64,000 nt of DNA from Coleofasciculus sp. FACHB-1120 (GTDB lineage: Bacteria; Cyanobacteriota; Cyanobacteriia; Cyanobacteriales; FACHB-T130). The position numbers and the translations under genes were made by a program. This document shows positions 48,607 through 63,550 of this stretch, in pieces; positions within the stretch are counted from its first letter, which is position 1; every line of letters begins with the position of its first letter. The stretch is taken from contig NZ_JACJTV010000001.1 in assembly GCF_014698845.1 (NCBI RefSeq), forward strand, positions 186,001 through 250,000. Reading direction: 5' to 3'. The notes under the pieces were generated by a model. It did no database searches. It had not been told where the DNA came from and was given only the letters and a program-made list of their open reading frames with translations.

Positions 48607-50139
48607 ATGCCAAGCCGTCATGTTGTCGTTATCGGTGCTGGAATTGGTGGTCTCACTACTGGGGCATTACTGGCTCGTCGAGGCTACCCAGTCTTAGTTT
48701 TGGATCAAGCTCTGGTGCCTGGTGGATGTGCTTCCACGTTTAAACGCAAAGGATTTACCTTTGATGTGGGAGCGACTCAGGTAGCTGGACTAGAACCGGG
48801 GGGGATTCATCATCGGATTTTTCGAGAACTAGAAATTGAAATCCCAGCGGCGACGCCTTGCGATCCAGCTTGTGCGGTGTATCTACCGGGAGAAACCGAA
48901 CCAATTAACGTATGGCGCGATCCCCAAAAGTGGAAGGAGGAGCGTCAGCGGCAGTTTCCCGGAAGCGAACCATTTTGGGAGCTGTTGGCGACTTTATTCC
49001 GGGCGAGTTGGGCGTTTCAATCGCGCGATCCGGTGCTACCGCCGCGAAATTTATGGGACTTATGGCAGCTGGTATCGGCGGTTCGTCCTGATACGTTGAT
49101 TACTTTGCCCTACACTTTTTTGACAGTGGGAGACGCTTTGCGGGGGTATGGATTGGGCGATAATCAGCGTCTGAGAACGTTTCTGGATTTGCAGCTCAAG
49201 CTTTATTCTCAGGTAGATGCAGAGGAAACGGCTCTACTCTATGCAGCGACTGCGTTGAGTGTTTCCCAGGAGCCGCAGGGACTATTTCATCTCAAAGGCA
49301 GTATGCAGGTGTTGAGCGATCGCCTAGTCTCCTCTTTAGAGCGAGATGGTGGCAAGCTGTTGATGCGCCACACCGTTGAACGTATCCACACCACAAATGG
49401 CAAAGCCACTGGTGTCGTCATTCGCAATCAAAAGACCGGCGTTGTCTGGACAGAACCCGCCGACCACGTTGTTGCCAATGTCACCGCGCAAAATCTGGTG
49501 CAGCTGTTGGAATTGGAAGCAGAGAAACCAGAGAGTGCCAATTCTCCATCCAAAATCCAAAATCGATATCGTCGTCGAGTCGATAAATTGCCCCCATCGT
49601 CGGGAGCTTTTGTGGTGTATCTAGGTGTCGATCGAAGTGCGATTCCTTCAGGATGTCCGCCTCATTTGCAGTTTCTCTACGATTATGATGGCCCGATTGG
49701 GGAAAATAACTCTCTATTTGTCTCCGTGAGCCACGCCGGAGATGGTCGCGCACCAGAAGGCAAAGCAACTATCATCGCCTCTTCCTTTGTTGACACTCGA
49801 AATTGGTGGCAATCTGAGGATTATGAACAGCTAAAGCAACAATATACCGAGGAAGCGATCGCTCGCCTGAGTCAATTTTTTCACTTGACACCAGAAACTA
49901 TCGTCCATCAAGAAGCCGCCACACCCCGCACCTTTGCCCGCTTCACAGCACGCGATCGCGGGATTGTCGGCGGAATTGGTCAGCGAGTTTCTACCTTTGG
50001 TCCCTTTGGCTTTGCCAATCGCACACCCGTGAATCATTTGTGGCTAGTGGGAGATTCCACCCATCCCGGCGAAGGAACCGCAGGCGTCAGCTACTCCGCT
50101 CTCACCGTGGTGCGCCAAATCGAAAATGCCAAGAATTGA
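48607..50139 (+). CDS. crtD: C-3',4' carotenoid desaturase
   Basis: 510 residues. FAD-binding start VVVIGAGIGGLTTGALLARR, then GCASTFKRKGFTFDVGATQV and the C-terminal FAD motif HLWLVGDSTHPGEGTAGVSY. CrtD introduces the 3',4' double bond in the myxoxanthophyll pathway. At about 305-322 a loop ESANSPSKIQNRYRRR is encoded by CCAAAATCCAAAAT-like DNA typical of the intergenic repeats here. It starts 48 bp after the kinase gene. Confidence 0.85.
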   Translation: MPSRHVVVIGAGIGGLTTGALLARRGYPVLVLDQALVPGGCASTFKRKGFTFDVGATQVAGLEPGGIHHRIFRELEIEIPAATPCDPACAVYLPGETEPINVWRDPQKWKEERQRQFPGSEPFWELLATLFRASWAFQSRDPVLPPRNLWDLWQLVSAVRPDTLITLPYTFLTVGDALRGYGLGDNQRLRTFLDLQLKLYSQVDAEETALLYAATALSVSQEPQGLFHLKGSMQVLSDRLVSSLERDGGKLLMRHTVERIHTTNGKATGVVIRNQKTGVVWTEPADHVVANVTAQNLVQLLELEAEKPESANSPSKIQNRYRRRVDKLPPSSGAFVVYLGVDRSAIPSGCPPHLQFLYDYDGPIGENNSLFVSVSHAGDGRAPEGKATIIASSFVDTRNWWQSEDYEQLKQQYTEEAIARLSQFFHLTPETIVHQEAATPRTFARFTARDRGIVGGIGQRVSTFGPFGFANRTPVNHLWLVGDSTHPGEGTAGVSYSALTVVRQIENAKN

Positions 50140-50196
50140 TTCAGATGCAAGTGTTACAAAGATAGCAATCCTATTTGAGTTGTGAGCCAGCCCTTG

Positions 50197-50230
50197 AGAT
50201 CCCCGACTTCTTTCTCGAAGCCGGGGATCT
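50197..50230. terminator. Palindromic repeat/terminator after crtD
   Basis: AGATCCCCGACTTC and GAAGCCGGGGATCT pair with a single mismatch around a 6-nt loop, about 58 bp after the crtD stop. A near-palindrome of this text is common between cyanobacterial genes. Confidence 0.6.
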
Positions 50231-50267
50231 CGCGTTTACGAATTATTTAGGACTGGATCTAAGTGTT

Positions 50268-50366
50268 ATTAATATGCGCTGATTAATATGCGCGGTAATT
50301 CTGTTTGAAGCTTACAGAAAACCAGAATACCTCGGCTAAGTTAAAGGCATACTGGTTTTCTGTAAG
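50268..50366. repeat. Direct and inverted repeats in the crtD-DUF4383 gap
   Basis: ATTAATATGCGC occurs at 50268-50279 and 50282-50293. CTTACAGAAAACCAG (50311-50325) pairs exactly with CTGGTTTTCTGTAAG (50352-50366), a 15-bp stem with a 26-nt loop. It lies between convergent genes. No T-tract flanks it, so its role is unclear. Confidence 0.6.
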
Positions 50367-50430
50367 GCAATCAGCGACGTAAAACTCAATCGGATTCGAC
50401 AATCGACCCGCTATTAAACGCCACCCTTTT

Positions 50431-50904
50431 TTAGCCCTCGTTACGAGTACCGCCCTGTTGTGGTGTGCTTAGCTCCAATAAATCCGGTGTAACAATAAAG
50501 CCAAAGTACACTGCGATCGCGGCGGTGACTGCATGAAGCCAGACATCATTGCCAAAGATTGGGATCAAGCCCAAAGTTGACTGGGTAGCTGGAAAAAGCC
50601 CCATTAGCGTTAGTACCCCATAAAAAATTCCCAGGACTCCACTATAGAGGCGAGAACTGTCTAAGGCGATGGATGCAAAAATTCCCAGCAGTCCTACGAC
50701 AAGGTGAACAACATTATGTAAGACATTGATGGGGAATAACCCCAGCAAGTAACCGTATCCACTTGTGTATCCAAGACCCGCCATATCAGGCGTAACTGTA
50801 GGCGCTTTCACAAAGGCTGGAATAAATCCCATTACACCACACAGGAAAAAGAAAATGCCGACAATTAACGCAAATTTTTGCGTTGATTTCATTCCTTTCA
50901 TCAT
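50431..50904 (-). CDS. DUF4383 membrane protein
   Basis: 157 residues from ATG 50904; a TTG five codons earlier is an alternative. Four membrane helices are visible (FALIVGIFFFLCGVMGFIPA; LHNVVHLVVGLLGIFASIAL; YSGVLGIFYGVLTLMGLFP; HAVTAAIAVYFGFIV), as is common for DUF4383. Residues N-VLHNVVHLVVGL are the conserved core. The function of the family is unknown. Confidence 0.88.
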   Translation of the reverse strand: MMKGMKSTQKFALIVGIFFFLCGVMGFIPAFVKAPTVTPDMAGLGYTSGYGYLLGLFPINVLHNVVHLVVGLLGIFASIALDSSRLYSGVLGIFYGVLTLMGLFPATQSTLGLIPIFGNDVWLHAVTAAIAVYFGFIVTPDLLELSTPQQGGTRNEG

Positions 50905-51265
50905 TAAATTTCCGTACAAAGTTTGATTTTAATCTAAGCAGTATTAGCAGCTCTTTCGCCTTTCCTAAGGAAGAGGTGTTGAATCTGCCCAGAGAAAGGG
51001 TTTATTGTTAAAGGCGAACGTAATCGATCATACAACTGTAGCAAATTTAGACTACTAACCTAGACAGAGCGCTTGTCCCGTCTTAATTTCAGTAATTTTT
51101 TGTAAAGATGGATACAAAGAGGAGCGGTTAGCAATCAATTAACGCGAATATTAAGCGAAGTATACCCTTCACCACAATTAGGTAATTCTCGTTATTGAGG
51201 CGGTTAAGGTAGATAAAAATAGCAGCACTGCTAACGATTAAACCTACTCCGAAGGTCAAAAGAAT
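50905..51265. other. Divergent intergenic region, nothing recognised
   Basis: About 360 bp between the DUF4383 start and the five-PAS kinase. No hairpin, gene or RNA signature is seen. Promoters for both genes are expected here. Confidence 0.4.
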
Positions 51266-54235
51266 ATGCGTAGATTGGGAAGACGAGTGAGATCCGTGCA
51301 GGCTGCGCTAAAACCACAATTAATCCGGCAACTCAAAGCTGAAAAAGCTAGACTACTACGCCAATATCATAATTTGCTGGCTAACCCATTAATCGCTGAC
51401 GTTGTTGTTAATTCCCGCAATATCACCAAATGCAAAGCTGCTGAAGCTGCACTGAATCAGGCAAACGAAGCCTTAGAAATTCGCGTTGAGGAACGTACCA
51501 TTGCATTAACAGAAACCAATAATCAATTGCGGCAAGAAATTATCGAAGGCAAACAAGCTCTGGATGGGTTGAGAGAAAGTGAAGAACGGTTCCGTTGTTT
51601 GAGTAGCTACTCGCCAGTGGGGATTTTTTTGACAAATATGGAGGGTTGCTGCACCTACACAAATCCCCGCTGTCAAGCCATCTGTGGCTTCACCTTAGAG
51701 GAGAGTTTGCAAGAAGGGTGGTTGCAGTTTGTTCACCCAGGCGATCGCGATCGCGTCTTTGCAGATTGGTTGGCACATACTGCTGAACAGAGAGAATACT
51801 CTGACGAGTTTCGCTTTCAAACTAAAGAAGGAATTGTGCGTTGGGTTTACGTTCGGTCTTCACCGATGTTCTCCGATCGAGGAGAATTTATCGGTCATGT
51901 TGGAATTTTAGAAGACATTAGTGAAAGCCTGCGGCACGCTACGCTACGCCAGCACGCAGAGGAACAGCTAACACAGCAGCGCAGCCAGCAGAAAGCAATC
52001 CTCGATAATATTCCCCATTTAGCTTGGTTAAAAGACAAAGAAAGCAGATTCATTGCCGTCAACGAGGCATTTGGCAAAGCCTGCGGGCTCAAACCAGAAG
52101 ACTTAATTGGGAAGACAGATTTAGATATATGGCATCCAGATTTAGCCCAGAGATATCGAGAGGACGATCGAGAGGTGATGAAAATCGGCAAGCGAAAGCG
52201 TGTCGAAGAACCCGCAGTCTACCAAGAAGGAAAAATGCTATGGACAGAGACAATTAAAACCCCAATTTTTAATAACACCGGGGAGGTAATCGGAACAACC
52301 GGGATTGCGGTCGATATCACCGAGCGCAAGCAGTCAGAAGAAGCACTCCACCGCCGCGAACAAGGATTTAAAGCACTGGCTGAGAATTCCCCTGATATCA
52401 TTTCCCGATTTGACAAAGAATTGCGACATTTATATGTCAGTTCCGCTGTAGAGCGAACAATCGGAATATCCCCAGAAATATTTATCGGCAAAACTCATCC
52501 AGAGTTAAGAATCCCACCAGAAATTTATATTCCTTTTCAACAAATCCTTCAAGATGTATTTACAACAGGTCAGCCACACATTTTGGAAAGCAAGTCCCCA
52601 ATGAGCGGAAAATGCTATCAAGCTCGTATCGTCCCGGAATTTGCTTTAGATGGGTCAGTGGAGTCTGTGTTAAGTGTCGCTCGTGACATTACTGAGCAAA
52701 AACAGACAGAAGAAGCGCTCCGGGATGCACTTCAGAGACTGAACTTTCATTTTGAAAACTCACCCCTAGCGGTCATAGAGTGGGATTGTAATTTTCGGGT
52801 GTCGCGTTGGTCGTCGGAAGCAGAAAAAGTTTTCGGATGGAAAGCGGAGGAAGTTATTGGCAAACATCCCGCTGAGTGGCAGTTTGTCTTTTCTGAAGAC
52901 GTGCCAACTGTTGATAGTGTCATTCAGCGGTTAATTGATAGCAGAGAGCAGCGTAATGTTTCCCGAAACCGCAATTACACCAAGGATGGTTCCCGTGTCT
53001 ATTGCGAATGGTACAACTCGGCATTATTCGATAAATCGGGCAATTTAGTATCGGTGCTGTCTCTAACTCTGGATGTAACTAAGCGTAAAAAGATGGAGGA
53101 AGCGTTGCGGGAAAGCGAAACACGCTTCCGGATTATGGCTGACAACGTGCCTGCATTGATTTGGATGTCAGACATTAATTACAAGGGAACATTTTTCAAT
53201 CAAGCTTGGTTAGATTTTACAGGACGTAGCCTTGAACAAGAACTGGGCAACGGTTGGTTAGAAAGTGTCCATCCTGATAATTTACGACGTTGTTTGGACA
53301 CCTATAAATCAGCCTTCAATACTCGCCAACCAGTGCGAGTGGAATACCGCCTCAAGCGTGCTGATGGGAATTATCGCTGGGTTTTAGATACGGGGATTCC
53401 GCGCTTCACACCTGATGGCAGCTTTGCAGGTTACATCGGCTCGTGCATAGATATTACGGAGCGCAAACAGGCAGAAGAAGAGATTTTGAATGCTTTGGCA
53501 AAAGAAAAAGAACTGAGCGAACTGAAATCTCGCTTTGTCTCCATGACTTCCCACGAGTTCCGCACGCCTTTAAGCATTATTTTGTCTGCTTCGGAATTAT
53601 TAGAATATTATGGCAATCTCTGGAATCAAGAGGAAAGACTAGAACAACTTCATCTCATTCAATCCTCGGTTCACCACATGACCCAGTTATTAAATGATGT
53701 ACTGACATTAGGGAAAGCCGACGCGAGAAGATTAGACTTTAATCCGGCAACCCTTGACCTAATTGAATTCTGTCAGGCAATCGTTGCCGAAATACAACTT
53801 ACCGCGAGCAGGGGACATAAGATTATTTTTACCAGCCAATCCCCATGTCTGAATGCTTGTATGGATAAAAAATTGCTGAGACAAATTCTCAATAATTTAC
53901 TCTCAAATGCTATCAATTATTCACCAGAGAATAGCAATATTTATTTTAAGCTTGCTTCTGAAGATGGAGAGGCTATTTTAGAAATACAAGATGAAGGAAT
54001 TGGGATTCCTCTAGCAGATCAATCCCGATTGTTTGAACCGTTTCACCGGGGAACAAATGTCAGCAACATTAATGGTACGGGATTAGGACTGGCAATTGTG
54101 AAAAGGTGTGTAGACTTACATCAGGGTAGGATGATATTAACCAGTAAAATTGGGATTGGCACGACGTTTCAAGTCGTTCTTCCTTTAAATAACAGATTGA
54201 CGAGTCAAACCTGTGAAGAAGATTCTGGTGATTGA
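51266..54235 (+). CDS. Sensor kinase with five PAS domains
   Basis: 989 residues without membrane helices. After a basic coiled coil there are five PAS/PAC units (about 107-220, 235-355, 365-480, 492-610, 618-735), each ending in a D(V/I)T(E/K)(R/Q)K-like PAC end. HisKA has VSMTSHEFRTPLSI (about 758) and the ATPase has NNLLSNAINY, QDEGIGI and GTGLGLAIV. PAS signals are unknown; no FMN Cys motif (NCRFLQ) or haem His pattern is seen. Residues about 222-229 (LRHATLRQ) are coded by a GC-rich repeat. It overlaps the next gene by 23 bp. Confidence 0.92.
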   Translation: MRRLGRRVRSVQAALKPQLIRQLKAEKARLLRQYHNLLANPLIADVVVNSRNITKCKAAEAALNQANEALEIRVEERTIALTETNNQLRQEIIEGKQALDGLRESEERFRCLSSYSPVGIFLTNMEGCCTYTNPRCQAICGFTLEESLQEGWLQFVHPGDRDRVFADWLAHTAEQREYSDEFRFQTKEGIVRWVYVRSSPMFSDRGEFIGHVGILEDISESLRHATLRQHAEEQLTQQRSQQKAILDNIPHLAWLKDKESRFIAVNEAFGKACGLKPEDLIGKTDLDIWHPDLAQRYREDDREVMKIGKRKRVEEPAVYQEGKMLWTETIKTPIFNNTGEVIGTTGIAVDITERKQSEEALHRREQGFKALAENSPDIISRFDKELRHLYVSSAVERTIGISPEIFIGKTHPELRIPPEIYIPFQQILQDVFTTGQPHILESKSPMSGKCYQARIVPEFALDGSVESVLSVARDITEQKQTEEALRDALQRLNFHFENSPLAVIEWDCNFRVSRWSSEAEKVFGWKAEEVIGKHPAEWQFVFSEDVPTVDSVIQRLIDSREQRNVSRNRNYTKDGSRVYCEWYNSALFDKSGNLVSVLSLTLDVTKRKKMEEALRESETRFRIMADNVPALIWMSDINYKGTFFNQAWLDFTGRSLEQELGNGWLESVHPDNLRRCLDTYKSAFNTRQPVRVEYRLKRADGNYRWVLDTGIPRFTPDGSFAGYIGSCIDITERKQAEEEILNALAKEKELSELKSRFVSMTSHEFRTPLSIILSASELLEYYGNLWNQEERLEQLHLIQSSVHHMTQLLNDVLTLGKADARRLDFNPATLDLIEFCQAIVAEIQLTASRGHKIIFTSQSPCLNACMDKKLLRQILNNLLSNAINYSPENSNIYFKLASEDGEAILEIQDEGIGIPLADQSRLFEPFHRGTNVSNINGTGLGLAIVKRCVDLHQGRMILTSKIGIGTTFQVVLPLNNRLTSQTCEEDSGD
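51927..51950. repeat. GC-rich short repeat inside a coding region
   Basis: The 24-bp stretch beginning GCCTGCGGCACGCTACG lies inside the five-PAS kinase gene, in frame, at the joint between PAS1 and PAS2. Similar short elements are dispersed in cyanobacterial genomes; another one lies near 61127-61165. Confidence 0.4.
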
Positions 54236-55331
54236 AGATGAGCCAGCCGTTAGAAGCAACCTTCTCAAACTCCTCAAGGCTGAGGGTTTTGATGCCATTG
54301 GTGCAGAAAACGGTTTAGTGGGGGTGCAGTTGGCAAGGGAACACGAACCTGATTTAATTATTTGTGATATCATGATGCCCGATTTTGATGGTTACAGCGT
54401 GCTAACTCAATTGCGCCAAGACCAGATGACGGCGATAATTCCCTTTATTTTTCTCACCGCTAAAACGGAGAGAGAAGACTTGCGCCAAGGGATGCAGCTG
54501 GGGGCTGATGATTATCTGACGAAGCCGTTTACCAGAGCAGAATTGTTAGGCGCGATCGCTACTAGACTGAAAAAACAAGAAGCTGTGACACTCCTGCAAG
54601 GGAAAATCCAAGAACTCCAGCAGCTCAATATTCAGAAAGATGATTTGCTCGCTAGAGCCTCTCACGAATTGCGAACCCCTCTAGCCAACATGAAGTTGAT
54701 TATCCAAATGTTGGAAATCATCTCTAATGAAGAACAACAGCAACAATATAGAGCCTTATTAGAATCTGAATGTATTCGGGAGCTAGAGCTAGTAAACAAT
54801 ATCTTAGATTTGCATCGGTTAGGATCAGAAAAAAATTCAATTTCTCCAGAGACTTTGATTTTACAATACTGGTTTCCGACGCTAATTGAGCCATTTAAAC
54901 CAGGAATAGACCAGCGCCAACAAATCCTCAAAATCGATTGTCCTCCCGATATTCCTCCACTGATTTCAGATCGGCTTTGTCTAGAACAGATATTGATAGA
55001 ATTAATTGGTAATGCTTGTAAATATACACCCCAATTTGGGAAAATATCCATTAGTATCTATGTAGATAATTCAACAAAAATTAATTGTTTAAATTCAATA
55101 ATTAGCTTTAAAATTACTAATCAAGCAGAAATATTAAATACGGAATTACCTCGAATTTTTGATAAATTTTATCGCATTCCTAATGCGGACATCTGGAACC
55201 AAGGAGGAAGTGGGTTAGGTCTATATTTGGTACAGAGTTTAGTGAAAAAAATTGGAGGAAATCTTCAAGTTCAAAGCACACAGGGTTGGACTACATTTAC
55301 CGTGCAGCTACCTATTCAGACAAGTGTTTGA
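54213..55331 (+). CDS. REC-HisKA-HATPase kinase
   Basis: 372 residues, start GTG. A receiver domain comes first (VIEDEPAVRSNLL, phosphoacceptor in LIICDIMMPDFDG, FLTAKTE, LTKPF), then a kinase: DDLLARASHELRTPLANMK (His) and an ATPase with LIELIGNACKY and GGSGLGLYLVQ. The order is that of a response regulator that itself signals on by a kinase domain. The 23-bp overlap with the five-PAS kinase indicates co-translation and phosphate flow from one to the other. An output regulator is not present nearby. Confidence 0.92.
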   Translation: MKKILVIEDEPAVRSNLLKLLKAEGFDAIGAENGLVGVQLAREHEPDLIICDIMMPDFDGYSVLTQLRQDQMTAIIPFIFLTAKTEREDLRQGMQLGADDYLTKPFTRAELLGAIATRLKKQEAVTLLQGKIQELQQLNIQKDDLLARASHELRTPLANMKLIIQMLEIISNEEQQQQYRALLESECIRELELVNNILDLHRLGSEKNSISPETLILQYWFPTLIEPFKPGIDQRQQILKIDCPPDIPPLISDRLCLEQILIELIGNACKYTPQFGKISISIYVDNSTKINCLNSIISFKITNQAEILNTELPRIFDKFYRIPNADIWNQGGSGLGLYLVQSLVKKIGGNLQVQSTQGWTTFTVQLPIQTSV

Positions 55332-55814
55332 GTAAAAAAGAGTAATTAGATATCAATAGGCATTTAGCTTAAGGATAAGGTAGTTAAAATAGACATCTTG
55401 TACCTTTCTCAGTCAGCCCATCTACCTTAAACTCAAGCTCAATGCTCATCACTTACGTCCATTAAAATGGGGTGAAATTATTACTTCGCCTTCTTCAGAA
55501 GACTTGATTCTGTAAGCCTGGGTTTTAAATCCCAAGTGCGCTAAGTGCGTAATACGACTGGTGCAAGAAGGTGAGGGCTTGAGCGATTAGAGGGGGGAAT
55601 TTATTCTCCGGAGGGATTGAAGCGAAGCTCAAGTTTTAACAGAAGTGGATAATGACATAACCTGAAAGGGCAGGCGAATTACAACTCTTTGAGGCAAAAA
55701 CTCCGATTCTGTGTAAGATGTAACAAAAATTCTACACAGTAATTTCGTTGCTGCATAAGAATAAGTAATAGTGGCTTCAGCCTGTTTTCCTCAGAAACAG
55801 CTACAGACAAACTT
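55332..55814. other. Intergenic region before the helicase gene
   Basis: 483 bp without a gene. GTGCGCTAAGTGCG and a small hairpin near 55490 are seen, and a GC-rich purine stretch around 55590-55620 (GGGGGGAATTT and CCGGAGGG). No known RNA is recognised. It should contain the promoter of the helicase gene. Confidence 0.4.
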
Positions 55815-58800
55815 ATGTACGTCTATCGCACCTCTCAATTTAACCGAAAGACCCTGTGCTACGGTGTTCAGGCTCAAGTAGATAAATTATGCAATGAACT
55901 TGAGCCTTTGAGTATTGATGAGTCACAGGCACGTTTTGAGAGGGTTTATCCCTACTTAAAGCGGAGAGGGGAAAACAATTTACGCCTCATTGCCAGAATT
56001 CGACCCGTACAGGACGACCTGGTGCTATGCTTACTAGACATTTTTCTCCGTGGCTCTAAAGAATACAAAAAGTTCCTGCGAACCCCAGAAGAGTACGGTA
56101 CTAAGAATCTTGACTGCCAATTAGATGAGAAAGCGTTAACTGGTTGGCTTCAACAGCAGCAACCCTCAGCCAGCAACGTGTCTTCAAGACGTGAACCGCT
56201 TCCAGACGATTTGCTTCCCTGGCTAGAACCTCCAGGCTGGGAGATAGAAAAGGATAAAGACTCTTGGGCAATCCTCTACGAAAGTGATGAGTGGATTGCT
56301 AAGTTCAAGAGTCCAGAAATCGGAGAAAACTGGGAAATTTACTATCAAATTGTCTCTGGAATAGAAGAAAAATCGAGGAACGCTGAGAAAATTGCTGCTT
56401 GGCCCGGTGTGTATTTGTGTGGTGAAAATAATTGCTATGTGCTATTTAGCCAACTTGAAACCGCCGATACACCACCTCGAAAAGTATTATTTCTCCTAGC
56501 ATCTTTTGCTCATCGACCTTCTACGGAAGAGATAGCCCAAATAGGACAGGCAACCAATTTATTTGACAGTTATAAAAATGTTTTATCTAAGCCTTTAACG
56601 TTGGATGAACTCACTCCCTTTGCTCGACGGTCTTATCCGAGTTACTTAGTAACAGATAAACAAAGTTGGCTTGCCATTCAAAGAGGAGCAGAAGTAAATC
56701 TAGCCCTTTCAGCAGAAGAAGAGGCAATTCTTAACTCGGTGTCAACAACATCAGCACGGGAAAATAACTGTCTGCCGCTTTTCTTAAATGGACGAGCGGG
56801 TAGCGGTAAATCTACCATGCTGTTGTATTTGTTTGCAGATTATTGTTATCGAAAATATTACTACGAACCGGGAAAAGAACTTCCAGGTAGACCGCTTTTT
56901 CTTACTTATAATAAGCGTCTATTAGAGGTGGCGAAAGAGTTCGTACGCTGTCTGCATACATTCCATCACCGCTTTGTGGCAGATCGAACAGAAGGTTCGG
57001 AAATCCCCGATGTCAGTGCCTTCTTTCAGCCGTTTGGGACATTTCTTTTAAACTTACTTCCTTTAGAAGCAGACGATGCGTCGCTGGCTAACCGGATGAT
57101 CCAGCAACCTTACTCTGCGGGAAACCCTACCGGCTACCGGCATACACTCCAGGAGCGTTTCGATTCCCAGAAATACATTTCTTTCCATCGCTTCCGACAG
57201 CTTTACCGAGACTCAAAGCTGCCACAAGCACAGGTGTATTCCCCAGAACTTTCCTGGCACGTTATTAGAACGTTCATCAAGGGGTACAGTCTCAGGTACA
57301 TGACTCCAGAAGACTACCAGCATGAAGTGCCGACTCAGGAACGCACTGTCCCAGTCGCTCAGTTTCAAGAAATTTACAAAACCATCTGGGGACGTTGGTA
57401 TAAGCGACTAACAACCGAGCTAGGGTACTGGGACGATCAAGACTTGATTAGATTGGTGCTGGAACTCAAGTGTTACCGTGCTGAGTACACCGCCATTTTC
57501 TGCGACGAGGCGCAAGATTTCACTCGGATAGAACTTCAGTTGATTATGCGGCTGTCTGCATTCTCTCAGTGCGATCTGGGATACCAGCCTATGCGTAATT
57601 TGCCTTTTGCTTTTGCTGGAGATCCTTTCCAAACCTTGAACCCGACAGGATTTCGTTGGGAGAGCGTACAGGCAGCATTTTACAATGAAGCGATCGCAGC
57701 ACTCGATCCTACACAGCGATTAAATCTGCGGATGAATTTCCCGGAGCTGAAGTCTAACTATCGCTCTTGTACTGCGGTTGTGCAAGCGATTAACCTGATC
57801 CAATTGTGTCGTCAGGTTCTGTTTAAAATTCCGGCACTTCAGCCGCAAACAGCCTGGAAACAAGGTCACTTTCCCACTCCGCAAAAATTTATTATTGGTC
57901 GGAATATTCAAATTGAGCAACTCAAACGCTACCTGAGAGACACAATTATTATTGTGCCTTGTGAAGAAGGGGGAGAGCTTGCCTATGCTCAAAACGATGC
58001 AGTTCTTTCTCAAATTTTGGCAGAGATTCCAGAGTCAGAACCGCTCAAAAATGTATTAAGTGCTAGTGCAGTTAAAGGATTGGAATTTAAACGAGTCGTT
58101 CTCTATAAATTTGGTGAGGAATGTAACAAAGCTGTTTGGAGTCTGGTCAATCGGCAGGAAGACTCAAAAGACCTTTTAGCGGATCGTTTATACGAATTTG
58201 AATTTTTCTTTAATAAACTCTACGTGGCTGCTTCCAGAGCCAAAGAACGTCTATTTGTTGTTGATTCTCAAATCGGAGACCAGCGGCTTTGGGGGGTCAC
58301 AGAAACTTATTTAGAAGTGCTTTTACAGCATTCACAAAATCCTGCTTGGAGAGAAAACGTTCAACCCATCCGTTTGGGAAAACCTGAAAGCGCACGAGAT
58401 ATGCAAGAAGATGACTGGCACTCGATCGCGCAGGAGTTTGAGAGCCGGGGAATGAACTCGGAAGATCCAGATTTCATGAGGCGTGCCAGACAGTGTTATA
58501 GCGATCGCGCTTATGCTAAAAAAGCAGAAATTTGTGAAGCTTGGGCACTCAAATTTGAGCAGAAATTTGGCGATGCCGGTCAGCGTTTTCTCCTGCTTGG
58601 AAAAACAGAAGACGCTTGGGATTGTTTTTGGCAGGGGATGTGTTGGTCAGCATTGTTAAAGCATGACAAGGCTCCGCCAGGTCGGGAACTAGAGCGGGAG
58701 ATTGCCCAATTCATGGACAAAAAATTGAGCCAAGCTTCTTTAAAGGAGTTCACTCACTTCCTTCAGAACTGCATCAAAAGCAACCAGTTAGAAATTCACC

Positions 58801-59243
58801 GGAACAGCCGACAGTGGAAACTAGCTTTGGAGGAATATGCGACGGGAATTGGGGCTTTAATTGCTGGGACCAACCTCCACCCAAATGAATGGCAGCGATT
58901 TGGAGAGGTTCTCGAAGCTTTAGGCGAAGGCTGGAATGGGATGCTCTACCGTGCTGGAACTTGTTTCTACCGCGCCAAGAAGTATGAACGTGCCGCGCAA
59001 TGTTGGGAACGGTGTGATTCTACTCAACAGCGTAAATATTATCTAGCAAAAGCTTCTGTTCTTGGTTTGCCAAATGGCTTGGAGTATTTAGAAAAAGCCG
59101 GGGAATCTGAGCAGATTGTTAATAAGTGGAACCAAGCGGGTAGGCCTCACACTCAATTGTGGTTAAAGTATGTTGCACCAATACTAGAAAAAGGAAAAAG
59201 AAAGAGCGGTGCGGCAACAAAGGCGAAACAGAAAAAGCGGTAA
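55815..59243 (+). CDS. RelE/ParE-like domain plus SF1 (UvrD-type) helicase
   Basis: 1142 residues. Residues 1-95 look like a RelE/ParE toxin fold (YPYLKRRGENNLRLIARIR, then DDLVLCLLDIFLRGSKEYKK). A mixed region (about 135-300) follows. The SF1A motor has motif I GRAGSGKST (326-334), II FCDEAQDF (562-569), III AGDPFQTLNP (601-610), IV SNYR (647-650), V SAVKGLEFKRVV (751-762) and VI YVAASRAKERLFVV (803-816). The last 320 residues are helical, TPR-like. A family of TRANK1-like helicases has a similar plan. Role unknown; antiviral or RNA/DNA quality control are both possible. Its neighbours give no clue beyond a kinase pair upstream. Confidence 0.85.
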   Translation: MYVYRTSQFNRKTLCYGVQAQVDKLCNELEPLSIDESQARFERVYPYLKRRGENNLRLIARIRPVQDDLVLCLLDIFLRGSKEYKKFLRTPEEYGTKNLDCQLDEKALTGWLQQQQPSASNVSSRREPLPDDLLPWLEPPGWEIEKDKDSWAILYESDEWIAKFKSPEIGENWEIYYQIVSGIEEKSRNAEKIAAWPGVYLCGENNCYVLFSQLETADTPPRKVLFLLASFAHRPSTEEIAQIGQATNLFDSYKNVLSKPLTLDELTPFARRSYPSYLVTDKQSWLAIQRGAEVNLALSAEEEAILNSVSTTSARENNCLPLFLNGRAGSGKSTMLLYLFADYCYRKYYYEPGKELPGRPLFLTYNKRLLEVAKEFVRCLHTFHHRFVADRTEGSEIPDVSAFFQPFGTFLLNLLPLEADDASLANRMIQQPYSAGNPTGYRHTLQERFDSQKYISFHRFRQLYRDSKLPQAQVYSPELSWHVIRTFIKGYSLRYMTPEDYQHEVPTQERTVPVAQFQEIYKTIWGRWYKRLTTELGYWDDQDLIRLVLELKCYRAEYTAIFCDEAQDFTRIELQLIMRLSAFSQCDLGYQPMRNLPFAFAGDPFQTLNPTGFRWESVQAAFYNEAIAALDPTQRLNLRMNFPELKSNYRSCTAVVQAINLIQLCRQVLFKIPALQPQTAWKQGHFPTPQKFIIGRNIQIEQLKRYLRDTIIIVPCEEGGELAYAQNDAVLSQILAEIPESEPLKNVLSASAVKGLEFKRVVLYKFGEECNKAVWSLVNRQEDSKDLLADRLYEFEFFFNKLYVAASRAKERLFVVDSQIGDQRLWGVTETYLEVLLQHSQNPAWRENVQPIRLGKPESARDMQEDDWHSIAQEFESRGMNSEDPDFMRRARQCYSDRAYAKKAEICEAWALKFEQKFGDAGQRFLLLGKTEDAWDCFWQGMCWSALLKHDKAPPGRELEREIAQFMDKKLSQASLKEFTHFLQNCIKSNQLEIHRNSRQWKLALEEYATGIGALIAGTNLHPNEWQRFGEVLEALGEGWNGMLYRAGTCFYRAKKYERAAQCWERCDSTQQRKYYLAKASVLGLPNGLEYLEKAGESEQIVNKWNQAGRPHTQLWLKYVAPILEKGKRKSGAATKAKQKKR

Positions 59244-59342
59244 TTAGTCATTCGCGATCAGTTTTTAGATTTTGGCAAAATACCTAATCCCTCTTTTGTG
59301 ACTTTAGAAAAAGAGGGGTGACAACCCACTAATGACTAACGA

Positions 59343-61607
59343 CTAAAACGATGGTGAGTTCTCAAGGGACTGAGGTTGTATACTTTGTTTCCAACCTTGG
59401 ATTGCCCGTTGAGCGTCGGTATAGGCAGATGAACCGTCGGGGATGTTTTGAGCGATCGCGATCGCTCTTTGTACATCATTCCGAGCCTGATCTTGTGCCA
59501 TCGCCAACAGTTGATAACTCCAGCGATTAATCACCTCTCTAGCCTCAGCACCAACTCGCGTCGAGTTACGCACCTGACGAGCCGTTTGAACTGCTTGCGC
59601 GATCGCATCTGGTGTTCCTGGATTTGCTAACTGATAAGCGGACTGCAAAATCTCTTGCGATCGCAGTTCTGTCCGCCAACCTTTAATTTTTTCCTGAGCT
59701 TCACCGTAGAGTGCCCGTCCCGAGCGAATCTGTCCGGCTGCGGTAATTGCCCCCGGAAGATTACCAGAACTCGCCAAAGCTTGCGCTTGATCCAAATAAG
59801 GCTGGTCTTGAACCCGCTGAATTCTGTCTTGCCACCGTTGGATTTTGCCTTGAGCTTCTTGATAGAGGACTCGTCCTGGTTGAATCTGTCCCGCTGCGGC
59901 GATCGCACCGGAAAAATCTCCGGCATTTGCCAAACCTGTGGCTTGATCCAAATAAGGCTGGTCTTGCATTCGCTCGATTTTCTCAGTCCAACCTCGGATT
60001 TTGCGCCTCGCTTCTGTATAAAGAGCGCGTCCTTGACCGACTTGACTGGCTTCGTTAATGGCTTCTTGTAGGGAATTCATATCCCCCAAACTTGCCAGTT
60101 GATCGGCGCGAGAGAGATAGGGACGATCTTCTACCGTCTCTATTTGACTCGTCCAGTTAACCACCAGGGATTTGGCTTCTGAGGAGCGGGGATTCGTGCT
60201 AGGAACCAGTTGTGCTTCCGCGATCGCTGCGCTTAAGTCACCCACCGTTCCCCCTCTTGCCAGTTCTCGCGCCCGATCTAAATGGGCGACATCTTCAATT
60301 TCTCTCTGCCAGCGAACAATTAAATCCTGGGCTTTATCGTATAGAGGGCGTCCGGGATTTAGCTTTTGGGCAAGGGCGATCGCGTCTTCCAAATCTGAAA
60401 CCGTTCCCTTCTGAGCGCGAGACTGGGCACTTGCCAAGTCGTTCAAATCTTGCGCTTCGCTTTGTAAATTCAGGCTTTCGGGAATTTTACTGGTAATGAG
60501 GATCGTCGTTTGCCAGTCTTTTCGATCGAGCGCCTCTTGAGCCATATCGATTAATTTGCGCCCAAATTCTGTCACCGCGCCTTGGGCTTCCTTGTATGCC
60601 AAACTGCTGGGCGGAATTGCCTGTGCCAGCTTGATCGCCTCCAACAGATTATCTAATCCTCCGCTCTTAGAAAGTTGGAAAGCTTTATCCAACTTGGCGC
60701 TCTCTTCCCGCGCCGACTGAATTAGATTCACCAGTTGATCGTACTTGGTTGTTGCCCAGTAGTTATTGCCGATATAGACCAGTTGTACGGCATCGCGAAA
60801 AGCCTGATTCCAGTTAGACTCGCGTACCTCGTCCTCGGCTTTTTTATAAAGGTCTTCTGCCTTCGACCAGATAGATTGCCAGCGATTTACGCGCTCATCC
60901 ACCAACTTGTAGGCTGGTACGCCAGTGGGGATTTTGCGAGCCATTGCGATCGCGTCCGACAATTGACCCGCTTGGAAGGATTCCTCTCCTAATTTCAAAA
61001 TCTCCAGCGACCACTCTTCCAGATACTTGTCAATTTCTGGGCGTAGCGGGTGATCTTGTGGCAAACCACTCACCAGCGCGATCGCTTCTAGTAAATCTTT
61101 TGCTGTCTGCTTAGAAGCCGCTATCTGAGCGCAGCTGAGGCGCAGCGATGCCGAAGCCGTAGGCCAAAAAATCGCTGGGCAGTTCGGGAGGGCTGGCAGC
61201 TTAAATAACAGCGCCACCGCTGTAAAACCCAGCCCCCCAGAGAGCAGCACCACCAATATGCCCCAGAATGCCCAGCTAGTCGGCAAGCGTAAAAAACGTT
61301 TAGGACGAGGTGACTTGGGTGTTTCTGAGGGAGAGGGGGGCTGTGTAGCCGGAATTTGCTGCCCCCCCTCTGCGGGTGCTGAACGACTACCCGCCGGACG
61401 CTTAGGACGATCTGTTGGTGCAGGAAGGGGCTGTTTCCCCTGACGAGGTGCTTTGCCGGGGACGGGTCGTGAAGAGTTCTCGCTCGCGTGTGGTTTGCGA
61501 TCGCTCGGACGCCCAGACGCAGGTACTCGTTTTTGGGATGTCCACCCAGCCGAATTTGAAGACTTGCCGCTCCGCCCGCCATCTGGAATTTCGGGATTTC
61601 TAGTCAT
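59343..61607 (-). CDS. Membrane-anchored repeat protein
   Basis: 754 residues. The first 113 residues are Pro/Ser/Arg-rich and disordered, then one membrane helix (about 114-136). The remainder, probably outside the membrane, has at least eight helical repeats of about 54 residues; the best three read YLDQA..LA..G...GAI.AAGQI..GR.LY.EAQ.KI..W. Repeats alternate GRxLY with Trp, reminiscent of helical hairpin arrays. No known domain. Residues about 148-155 (TASASLRLS) are encoded by a GC-rich dispersed repeat. Confidence 0.8.
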   Translation of the reverse strand: MTRNPEIPDGGRSGKSSNSAGWTSQKRVPASGRPSDRKPHASENSSRPVPGKAPRQGKQPLPAPTDRPKRPAGSRSAPAEGGQQIPATQPPSPSETPKSPRPKRFLRLPTSWAFWGILVVLLSGGLGFTAVALLFKLPALPNCPAIFWPTASASLRLSCAQIAASKQTAKDLLEAIALVSGLPQDHPLRPEIDKYLEEWSLEILKLGEESFQAGQLSDAIAMARKIPTGVPAYKLVDERVNRWQSIWSKAEDLYKKAEDEVRESNWNQAFRDAVQLVYIGNNYWATTKYDQLVNLIQSAREESAKLDKAFQLSKSGGLDNLLEAIKLAQAIPPSSLAYKEAQGAVTEFGRKLIDMAQEALDRKDWQTTILITSKIPESLNLQSEAQDLNDLASAQSRAQKGTVSDLEDAIALAQKLNPGRPLYDKAQDLIVRWQREIEDVAHLDRARELARGGTVGDLSAAIAEAQLVPSTNPRSSEAKSLVVNWTSQIETVEDRPYLSRADQLASLGDMNSLQEAINEASQVGQGRALYTEARRKIRGWTEKIERMQDQPYLDQATGLANAGDFSGAIAAAGQIQPGRVLYQEAQGKIQRWQDRIQRVQDQPYLDQAQALASSGNLPGAITAAGQIRSGRALYGEAQEKIKGWRTELRSQEILQSAYQLANPGTPDAIAQAVQTARQVRNSTRVGAEAREVINRWSYQLLAMAQDQARNDVQRAIAIAQNIPDGSSAYTDAQRAIQGWKQSIQPQSLENSPSF
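61127..61165. repeat. GC-rich short repeat inside a coding region
   Basis: The element (GCGCAGCTGAGGCGCAGCGA, then TGCCGAAGCCGTAGGCC) is in frame in the repeat protein gene just after its membrane helix. It is of the same kind as 51927-51950. Confidence 0.4.
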
Positions 61608-61812
61608 AGCTTACTCACACCACAACGCGCTTCGCCTGGGACGAATGCTTTTTAGCACAGGCAGTAGTTGCAATCCTACTCCCCTCAGCCGCAAAAAGCT
61701 ATATTCTAATCCAGAAGTCAAAATCTATAATTCATCATTCACAAGGAAATTTTCAATTCAGCTACAGAATCTAGAATCTTTTCTAGCCTTGTGACTTTGT
61801 AACTTCTGATTC

Positions 61813-62712
61813 CTAAACAGACTCTGCACGTAAATCCTCAATCAGCGCCGCTAATTCGTCACTGCTAGCCTGGTAAACCTCTCCACAAAAATGGCAAGTC
61901 GCTTCGGCTCCATCATCTTTTTCAATCATGTCTTGCAGTTCGGCTTCACCCAGCATCTTCAAAGCACCCAAGACGCGGCTCATCGAGCAACCACAATGAA
62001 ATTGCAGCATCTGGACTTCTGGTAGGATGACCAGACCCAGATCTCCCAGGAGTTGTTCCAAAATTTCCGGCAACGTCTTACCTGCCTGTAACAACGGTGT
62101 AAATCCCGCCAGTGCTTCCATTCGAGATTCCAAAAGCTGCACGAGGCTCTCGTCGCTCGCCGCCTTGGGCAGGACTTGCACCAGCAACCCACCAGAAGCC
62201 CGGACTGTACCCGCTTCTATGAATACACCCACTGCTAGCGCCGAGGGCGTTTGTTCGGAAGTCACCAGATAGTGGGCAATGTCATCCCCAATTTCACCAG
62301 ACACCAGCTCAACGGTACTCGAATACGGGTAGCCGTATCCTACATCCCGCACAACATAGAGGTATCCCTCCCGACCGATTGCTCCCCCGACATCTAGTTT
62401 TCCTTTAGCGTTTGGGGGCAGTTCCACGGTTGGGTTATCTACATACCCTCGCACGGTTCCATCCAATCCCGCGTCAACGAGAAGCCCGCCGAGTGGACCA
62501 TTTCCCTTAATGCGAATGTTGACCCTTGAACCCTCTCGCTTCATGCTAGAGGCAAGTAATAGCCCAGAGGACAGGGTGCGTCCCAGTGCAGCGGTTGCTA
62601 CGTATGAAAGGTTATGACGCTGTCTGGCTTCTTGTGCGAGGCGTGTGGTAATGACCCCAACAGCTCGAATTCCACCCTCTGCCGCCGTGGCACGGATTAA
62701 CTGATCAGCCAT
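61813..62712 (-). CDS. hslO: Redox-regulated chaperone Hsp33
   Basis: 299 residues. The C-terminal redox switch is complete: HCGCSMSR (C-x-C) and CHFCGE (C-x-x-C). Under oxidation the zinc leaves, disulphides form and the chaperone binds unfolded proteins. N-terminal signature ADQLIRATAAEGGIRAVGV. Length is normal. Confidence 0.97.
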   Translation of the reverse strand: MADQLIRATAAEGGIRAVGVITTRLAQEARQRHNLSYVATAALGRTLSSGLLLASSMKREGSRVNIRIKGNGPLGGLLVDAGLDGTVRGYVDNPTVELPPNAKGKLDVGGAIGREGYLYVVRDVGYGYPYSSTVELVSGEIGDDIAHYLVTSEQTPSALAVGVFIEAGTVRASGGLLVQVLPKAASDESLVQLLESRMEALAGFTPLLQAGKTLPEILEQLLGDLGLVILPEVQMLQFHCGCSMSRVLGALKMLGEAELQDMIEKDDGAEATCHFCGEVYQASSDELAALIEDLRAESV

Positions 62713-63160
62713 GAAAAGACCTTACATTTCTTAACACACTATACTTTTATTGTAGGCATGGCAGTTGATGGTGAGGTAGCATCTGCGCTGCTAATTATTG
62801 GAACCGTTAAAAGCAGCGAGTTCTTCAAACAAGAGTAAGAATCTGAATCTTCTATCAGGTGCAGTTCAATCAGACACAGATGGATAAACAGACTAAGAAT
62901 CAGGATAGAAATCAAATCAGCATTTTCGATAATTCAAGAATTATATTTTAGGTTACTTTAGTTAATCAAAAAATCGATATTAAATTAAAATTACTCTTGT
63001 ATTTTTGATTAAAATATTAATTAGTTGATGCATTATAATTTTCATCTGCCAAGGTTATTTAGCCGCTATTTTGGAGAAAAACTATTACATTAGGGTGAGG
63101 AGCAGTAAATAGAAACCTCTGTACCAGTAACAACTAATAACCAAAAAATCACAACGGTTT
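62713..63160. other. AT-rich intergenic region, nothing recognised
   Basis: 448 bp between the divergent hslO and a small conserved gene. It is AT-rich at 62930-63060. No hairpin or RNA signature is seen. Confidence 0.4.
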
Positions 63161-63550
63161 ATGCTAGGAAACTTTCAACAAAGCCATCTCAGAATAGAAG
63201 TCAATTCCCCAGCCGCAGTCATCGGCGACAGTCTGCTTCGTCCCAGCCAGCTAAGCCAATGGCTGTGGCCCCAGCGCCTTTCCGCAGGGCTACCGGAACA
63301 ACTGTCTGAGGGGTTAACTTACACCAGTTGGGTGGGGCCAGTGGCGATACAACACCAAGTGGAAGTGGCTCAACCCCACTGTCTGCGCCTGCTCTTGAGC
63401 CAAGGAATTGACGGTTATCACGAGTGGTACTGGGGAGAACATTGGGTACAGTCACGTCTGGAAGGGGTATCTCTTCTGTCGCTGAGTTTGGGACAAACAC
63501 TCAGTTTGCTGCGCCTGCGAGAATTTCTGGCATCCCGATCTAAGGGCTGA
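63161..63550 (+). CDS. Conserved cyanobacterial protein, SRPBCC-like
   Basis: 129 residues. Pattern PSQLSQWLWPQRLSAGLPEQ, then a central strand set (YTSWVGPVAIQHQVEV) and DGYHEWYWGEHWVQSRLEG. This alternation and the C-terminal helix SLGQTLSLLRLREFL are reminiscent of small SRPBCC/polyketide-cyclase folds, which hold hydrophobic ligands. No catalytic residues are predicted. Start supported only by frame. It is followed by a strong bidirectional terminator. Confidence 0.65.
   Translation: MLGNFQQSHLRIEVNSPAAVIGDSLLRPSQLSQWLWPQRLSAGLPEQLSEGLTYTSWVGPVAIQHQVEVAQPHCLRLLLSQGIDGYHEWYWGEHWVQSRLEGVSLLSLSLGQTLSLLRLREFLASRSKG

Follow-up and report, generated by a model that had tools for sequence, protein, structure and literature searches.

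RelE-family toxin domains have nearly always been studied together with a separate antitoxin, and the locus described here raises the question of what such a domain may do when it forms the first part of a helicase. In fact, a 2025 survey of the superfamily left many multidomain members aside, and one of its reasons was that no antitoxin had been found for them (PMC11980606). The window analysed, a stretch of 64,000 nucleotides from Coleofasciculus sp. FACHB-1120, carries on its forward strand a gene with an ATG start (55815–59243) for a protein of 1142 amino acids, in which a RelE-like domain is followed by a middle domain, a UvrD-type SF1A helicase and a TPR-like tail. The gene is present in one copy in the 6.2 Mb genome. 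A preliminary description had read this open reading frame as a RelE/ParE-like start, an SF1 helicase and a TPR-like tail, and all these assignments were right; the middle domain (approximately residues 128–290) and the shortening of the tail were absent from it. As the matches to Pfam and NCBIfam were all sub-threshold, the N-terminal domain would escape automatic annotation.

The fold of this domain was predicted with AlphaFold2 for residues 1–115, using an alignment of ten sequences. The best of five models reached a pLDDT of 90.1 and a pTM of 0.82 (pLDDT of the remaining four: 80, 79, 53 and 47), with the order beta-alpha-alpha-alpha-beta-beta-beta-beta-alpha. In a Foldseek search of the PDB, the best matches were RelE/ParE toxins, with a probability of 0.99 and a top E-value of 0.012 (none was below 0.001), and the 50 matches listed by VIA-align were all toxins of the RelE/ParE superfamily. 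HigB2 was at the top (Z 10.6, rmsd 2.8 over 96 residues), Cami1 (Z 9.5 over 102 residues) and Thermus thermophilus RelE (Z 9.4) scored close to it, and ParE toxins ranked below these three (Z 7 to 7.6). At the sequence level, Pfam ParE_toxin matched two of the ten members (best E-value 3.2e-4) and not the window copy, hhalign and hmmsearch of the N-terminal profile against 30 cyanobacterial RelE/ParE toxins found nothing significant for the clade, and a sequence search of the PDB returned chance matches only. Because hhalign was not significant, the assignment rests on structure, on the partial Pfam match and on the active-site positions discussed below. We are confident in the predicted RelE/ParE (BECR) fold of residues 1–100 (55815–56114), and the pattern that had been read there by eye is thus borne out by both the fold prediction and the structure search. 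Homologues share the start MYVYRT.

The next question is whether the domain resembles the RNases or the ParE proteins of this superfamily. In RelE, cleavage depends critically on R61, R81 and Y87, and K52 and K54 lie close to them (PMC2807027), while the catalytic residues are missing from ParE toxins (PMC11980606). When residues are equated by secondary structure and strand order, without superposed coordinates, R57 (codon 55983–55985), R79 (56049–56051) and Y84 (56064–56066) take the positions of R61, R81 and Y87, and K49 (55959–55961) would be the basic beta-2 position near K52/K54. As in RelE, K49 lies in beta-2, R57 near the start of beta-3, R79 right after beta-4 and Y84 in the helix that follows. 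All four residues are conserved in 42 out of 42 distinct N-termini aligned (54 rows were first taken as N-termini, and 12 of these were removed as secondary matches to other parts of the same proteins), and they are among the 14 invariant columns of a 21-sequence alignment with relatives down to 24–27% identity. The most divergent full-length relative, which is outside the 42, does not clearly retain this K/R/R/Y pattern. Since ParE toxins lack the catalytic residues that are kept here, RelE-type (RNase) appears to be a better label than ParE-type, and the retained positions would fit an N-terminal part that cuts or binds RNA.

Regarding the motor (residues 295–850, 56697–58364), the six UvrD-type motifs that had been described as complete could all be located, and they show little or no variation in the alignment of ten sequences. 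They are motif I or Walker A (GRAGSGKST, residues 326–334, 56790–56816), motif II or Walker B (FCDEAQDF, 562–569, with CDEAQDF at 563–569; 57498–57521), motif III (FAFAGDPFQTLNP, 598–610, with AFAGDPFQTLNP at 599–610; 57606–57644), motif IV (LKSNYRS, 645–651, with NYRS at 648–651; 57747–57767), motif V around KGLEF (750–758, with KGLEF at 754–758; 58062–58088) and motif VI (KLYVAASRAK, 801–810, with YVAASRA at 803–809; 58215–58244). Judging from these motifs, the motor is an SF1A helicase of the UvrD type, a family whose Pfam models give only weak, sub-threshold matches to the window protein. The glutamine of the Q motif is absent from it: NLALSAEEEAIL stands in its place, and the replacement is clade-wide (ALSAEEEAIL and similar sequences; residues 295–306, 56697–56732). 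The Q motif is an accessory element, and the core SF1A motifs are present here. A separate PcrA/UvrD is encoded in the same genome, which suggests that the motor of the RelE-UvrD protein is specialised.

Between the N-terminal domain and the motor, the middle domain (residues 128–290, 56196–56684) is conserved in the alignment and kept throughout the clade, is modelled in part, and does not occur in the remote relatives whose N-terminus is short. We considered the possibility of a second, tandem RelE domain, as a weak full-length model showed a similar order of strands and helices, and rejected it, since it received no support from a profile-profile comparison or from profile-sequence tests in which shuffled sequences and other segments were the reference.

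The full-length AlphaFold2 model is poor (pLDDT 47) because the ten-sequence alignment is too shallow, and its sole usable part is the tail, where residues 859–1093 (58389–59093) are modelled as TPR-like helical hairpins, in agreement with what had been proposed for this region. The tail is approximately 250–400 amino acids shorter in this genus than in most relatives, whose length is 1385–1545 amino acids compared with 1142 in the window protein. The relatives continue with extra helical repeats and finish with a segment that, by eye, seems rich in strands; neither is present here, and the C-terminus of the window protein is lysine-rich (59180–59243). As a second species of the genus shares this C-terminal end, the shortened end is fixed and not an assembly error. 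In addition, a relative in the family with 75% identity, whose open frame has a length of 1118, matches only up to residue 1123.

Full-length homologues occur across the order with 40–75% identity, and the gene is present in 81 of 389 genomes and 46 of 149 genera of the order (matches with E-values of 1e-20 or better). Across 386 genomes of the phylum, the N-terminal profile matched 20 times, always in open frames of at least 1166 codons, and this search found no unfused N-terminal domain. More remote UvrD proteins in the phylum have short N-termini with a KxxR ... RLxF ... HDD-like pattern, and their tails are TPR, clathrin-like or ankyrin; for instance, one remote bacterial relative (L027) carries ankyrin repeats after the UvrD core. 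TRANK1-like proteins, which the preliminary description had brought up, combine a UvrD-like core with TPR and ankyrin repeats. Against the RelE/ParE profile, three remote relatives (L029, L019 and L020) outscore all 2300 shuffled sequences and the others do not. No relative was found in the phage records searched.

The gene is under purifying selection. In a comparison with the genus's second species, at 96% identity, dN/dS is 0.085 overall, 0.064 for the helicase part and 0.047 for the RelE part, the last from few changes (1.5 nonsynonymous versus 8.5 synonymous). The gene is surrounded by housekeeping genes, which vary from lineage to lineage. A crtISO-like gene is near the homologue in 7 of 27 loci, the window included, followed by genes for fructose-bisphosphatase (5), glucose-6-phosphate dehydrogenase (3) and hsp33 (3); there is no universal partner gene, as no neighbour family occurs in more than 7 of the 27 loci. 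The defence-island surroundings that the preliminary description had suggested looking for were not found in the window's clade, where housekeeping genes stand instead. PADLOC matches among the neighbours were also considered as defence genes and set aside as generic (a desaturase, an ABC-type ATPase and an OrfB/IS605 transposase read as Cas12f). The 480 bp upstream of the gene contain no open reading frame longer than 43 amino acids, and thus none of the size of an antitoxin gene, and the next gene is 99 bp away on the opposite strand; consequently, the locus does not consist of the small toxin and adjacent antitoxin gene of a type II system.

Some further features of the surroundings can be mentioned. 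In the window, a PAS-rich sensor histidine kinase (989 amino acids) and a response regulator-kinase hybrid that overlaps it (GTG start at 54213) occupy 51266–55331, between the crtISO-like gene (48607–50139) and the RelE-UvrD gene, and at two other loci (L032 and L048) the crtISO-like gene immediately precedes the homologue. On the other side, a repeat-rich protein of 754 amino acids (59343–61607, reverse strand) adjoins hsp33 (61813–62712, reverse strand), and L032 and L038 retain this pair downstream of the homologue.

The fusion of a RelE-like domain to a UvrD helicase has already been described. ArmD, from the ARMADA type II four-gene anti-phage system, is a UvrD helicase with a RelE-like N-terminus, and its Walker A lysine is required for anti-phage activity (2025 preprint, PMC12458937). 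Both proteins, compared by description, have the RelE-like domain at the N-terminus of UvrD, but ArmD acts with ArmA, ArmB and ArmC, whereas the window gene stands alone among housekeeping genes, and the window protein has an additional middle domain and the TPR-like tail. No BrxHII-like helicase, PglX-like methyltransferase or YprA-like helicase is found among the window open reading frames at 48607–63550, and the ARMADA type II partners are absent from the 25 commonest Pfam families among the homologues' neighbours. As the core is common with ArmD and the operon is not, the window protein is a stand-alone variant and not a new kind of fusion; what is new is this variant with its TPR-like tail. 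Our literature search found no paper on stand-alone RelE-UvrD-TPR proteins, with the ArmD preprint as the one close precedent.

Other systems share single features with the protein. In the CRISPR-associated mRNA interferase Cami1 (CARF-RelE), the RelE domain is likewise fused to a regulatory part and is controlled by the fused CARF sensor upon binding of cA4; in the window protein, by contrast, the fused part is an ATP-driven motor with a TPR-like tail. The title of a PDB structure places Cami1 on the 70S ribosome. CoCoNuT CnuH helicases carry an RNase toxin-like (RTL) domain, RelE/colicin D-like, that was found by structure (PMC11090510). The helicase, domain order and partners are different there, and sequence conservation with characterised members has not been reported for RTL, whereas the window clade keeps the RelE active-site positions. 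The type II toxins HigB2 and RelE share fold and catalytic positions with the domain, but they are small single-domain proteins with a separate antitoxin, while the window domain is fused and has none. Finally, GajB of Gabija has a UvrD-type core, with a weak PADLOC match (E-value 1.6e-5), but lacks the RelE-like, middle and TPR-like domains, and no GajA (OLD-like ATPase-nuclease) gene is found among the window neighbours.

Given a domain with conserved RNase positions that was found only in fused form, and in view of the missing antitoxin, restraint and release would probably come from the rest of the chain. We therefore tentatively favour, at somewhat less than even confidence, a single-protein, motor-gated and ribosome-dependent mRNA interferase, for which we infer the RNase step as well as the dependence on the ribosome, the gating and the nature of the trigger. 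In this model, the UvrD-type motor and the TPR-like tail would substitute for an antitoxin and, in the resting protein, keep the RelE part off the ribosome. The motor would then engage a trigger, for instance nucleic acid that is exposed or stalled during infection or where transcription is blocked, and ATP-driven movement or a TPR partner would release the RelE part, leading to mRNA cleavage in the ribosomal A site. The preliminary description had likewise suggested that the motor may sense stalled RNA or DNA and direct the RelE-like part. Cami1 and ArmD may be taken, by analogy, as precedents for a gated RelE and for a RelE-UvrD protein, respectively.

A physiological role would be as compatible with the stable housekeeping surroundings as a toxin-like one, and the main rival to the gated interferase is a non-cutting docking domain. 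According to this explanation, which is possible though we find it rather doubtful, the protein would be a housekeeping helicase whose RelE-like part binds without cutting and anchors the motor at the ribosome or on nascent mRNA, with the clearing of stalled transcription-translation complexes or R-loops as its task. Stable positions beside crtISO-like, hsp33, fbp and zwf genes look like core physiology, a chromosomal and largely lineage-wise distribution and the low dN/dS point the same way, and UvrD/PcrA helicases act at stalled RNA polymerase, according to the literature. However, docking would not require that all the RelE catalytic positions be kept down to 24–27% identity, and the presence of the gene in only about one fifth of the order's genomes shows that it is dispensable.

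That patchy distribution would also be consistent with a single-gene anti-phage system like ArmD or GajB, with the motor detecting phage DNA or its replication and the RelE-like part stopping translation. ArmD has the same two domains and needs its Walker A residue for defence, the GajB profile matches weakly, and remote relatives are found on plasmids next to parA. Nevertheless, no recognisable defence system adjoins the gene in the clade, the PADLOC matches of the neighbours look generic, and the homologues are in stable housekeeping contexts. We thus consider a phage-defence role unlikely; it overlaps with the gated interferase and is without contextual support in the window's clade. It is very improbable, finally, that the domain is a ParE-like protein binder (e.g., of gyrase) that targets the motor to a protein partner and has no role with RNA. 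ParE toxins are indeed among the structural matches, and ParE_toxin is the Pfam model that matches two members; yet HigB2, RelE and Cami1 rank higher, the RNase positions are retained, and PF05016 itself mixes RNases with gyrase inhibitors (PMC11980606).

The window clade is a case of the kind that the superfamily survey left out, with catalytic positions kept, a constant fusion to a motor and a stable place on chromosomes. Should the RNase be active, it must be held in check by motor and tail. A nucleic-acid motor would then be linked to translation arrest, and the clade would offer an ArmD relative that stands alone, so that the role of the RelE-like domain can be studied without three other proteins. 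More speculatively, chains of RelE-like, UvrD and TPR or ankyrin parts might be widespread in bacteria as antitoxin-free, motor-gated, ribosome-dependent RNases that, on cyanobacterial chromosomes, couple DNA or RNA trouble to mRNA cleavage, with ArmD as a version recruited into a phage-defence operon; we would give this generalisation a rather low probability.

Some remote relatives are outside chromosomes. Two plasmid UvrD-TPR genes with RelE/HigB-like N-termini (L134:3125–6274 and L135:3476–6763) lie near parA, which is downstream in Paraclostridium (Bacillota) and two genes upstream in Crinalium. The N-terminus of the Crinalium protein matches Pfam HigB-like (E-value 0.003), while the Paraclostridium one has TPR and UvrD by Pfam and an N-terminus that is RelE-like by eye only. 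With the Crinalium relative as query, many Shigella plasmid records with a UvrD gene were retrieved, virulence plasmids included. In addition, one genome (G085) has two copies (L057 and L059), one of them on a contig of 87 kb, possibly a plasmid.
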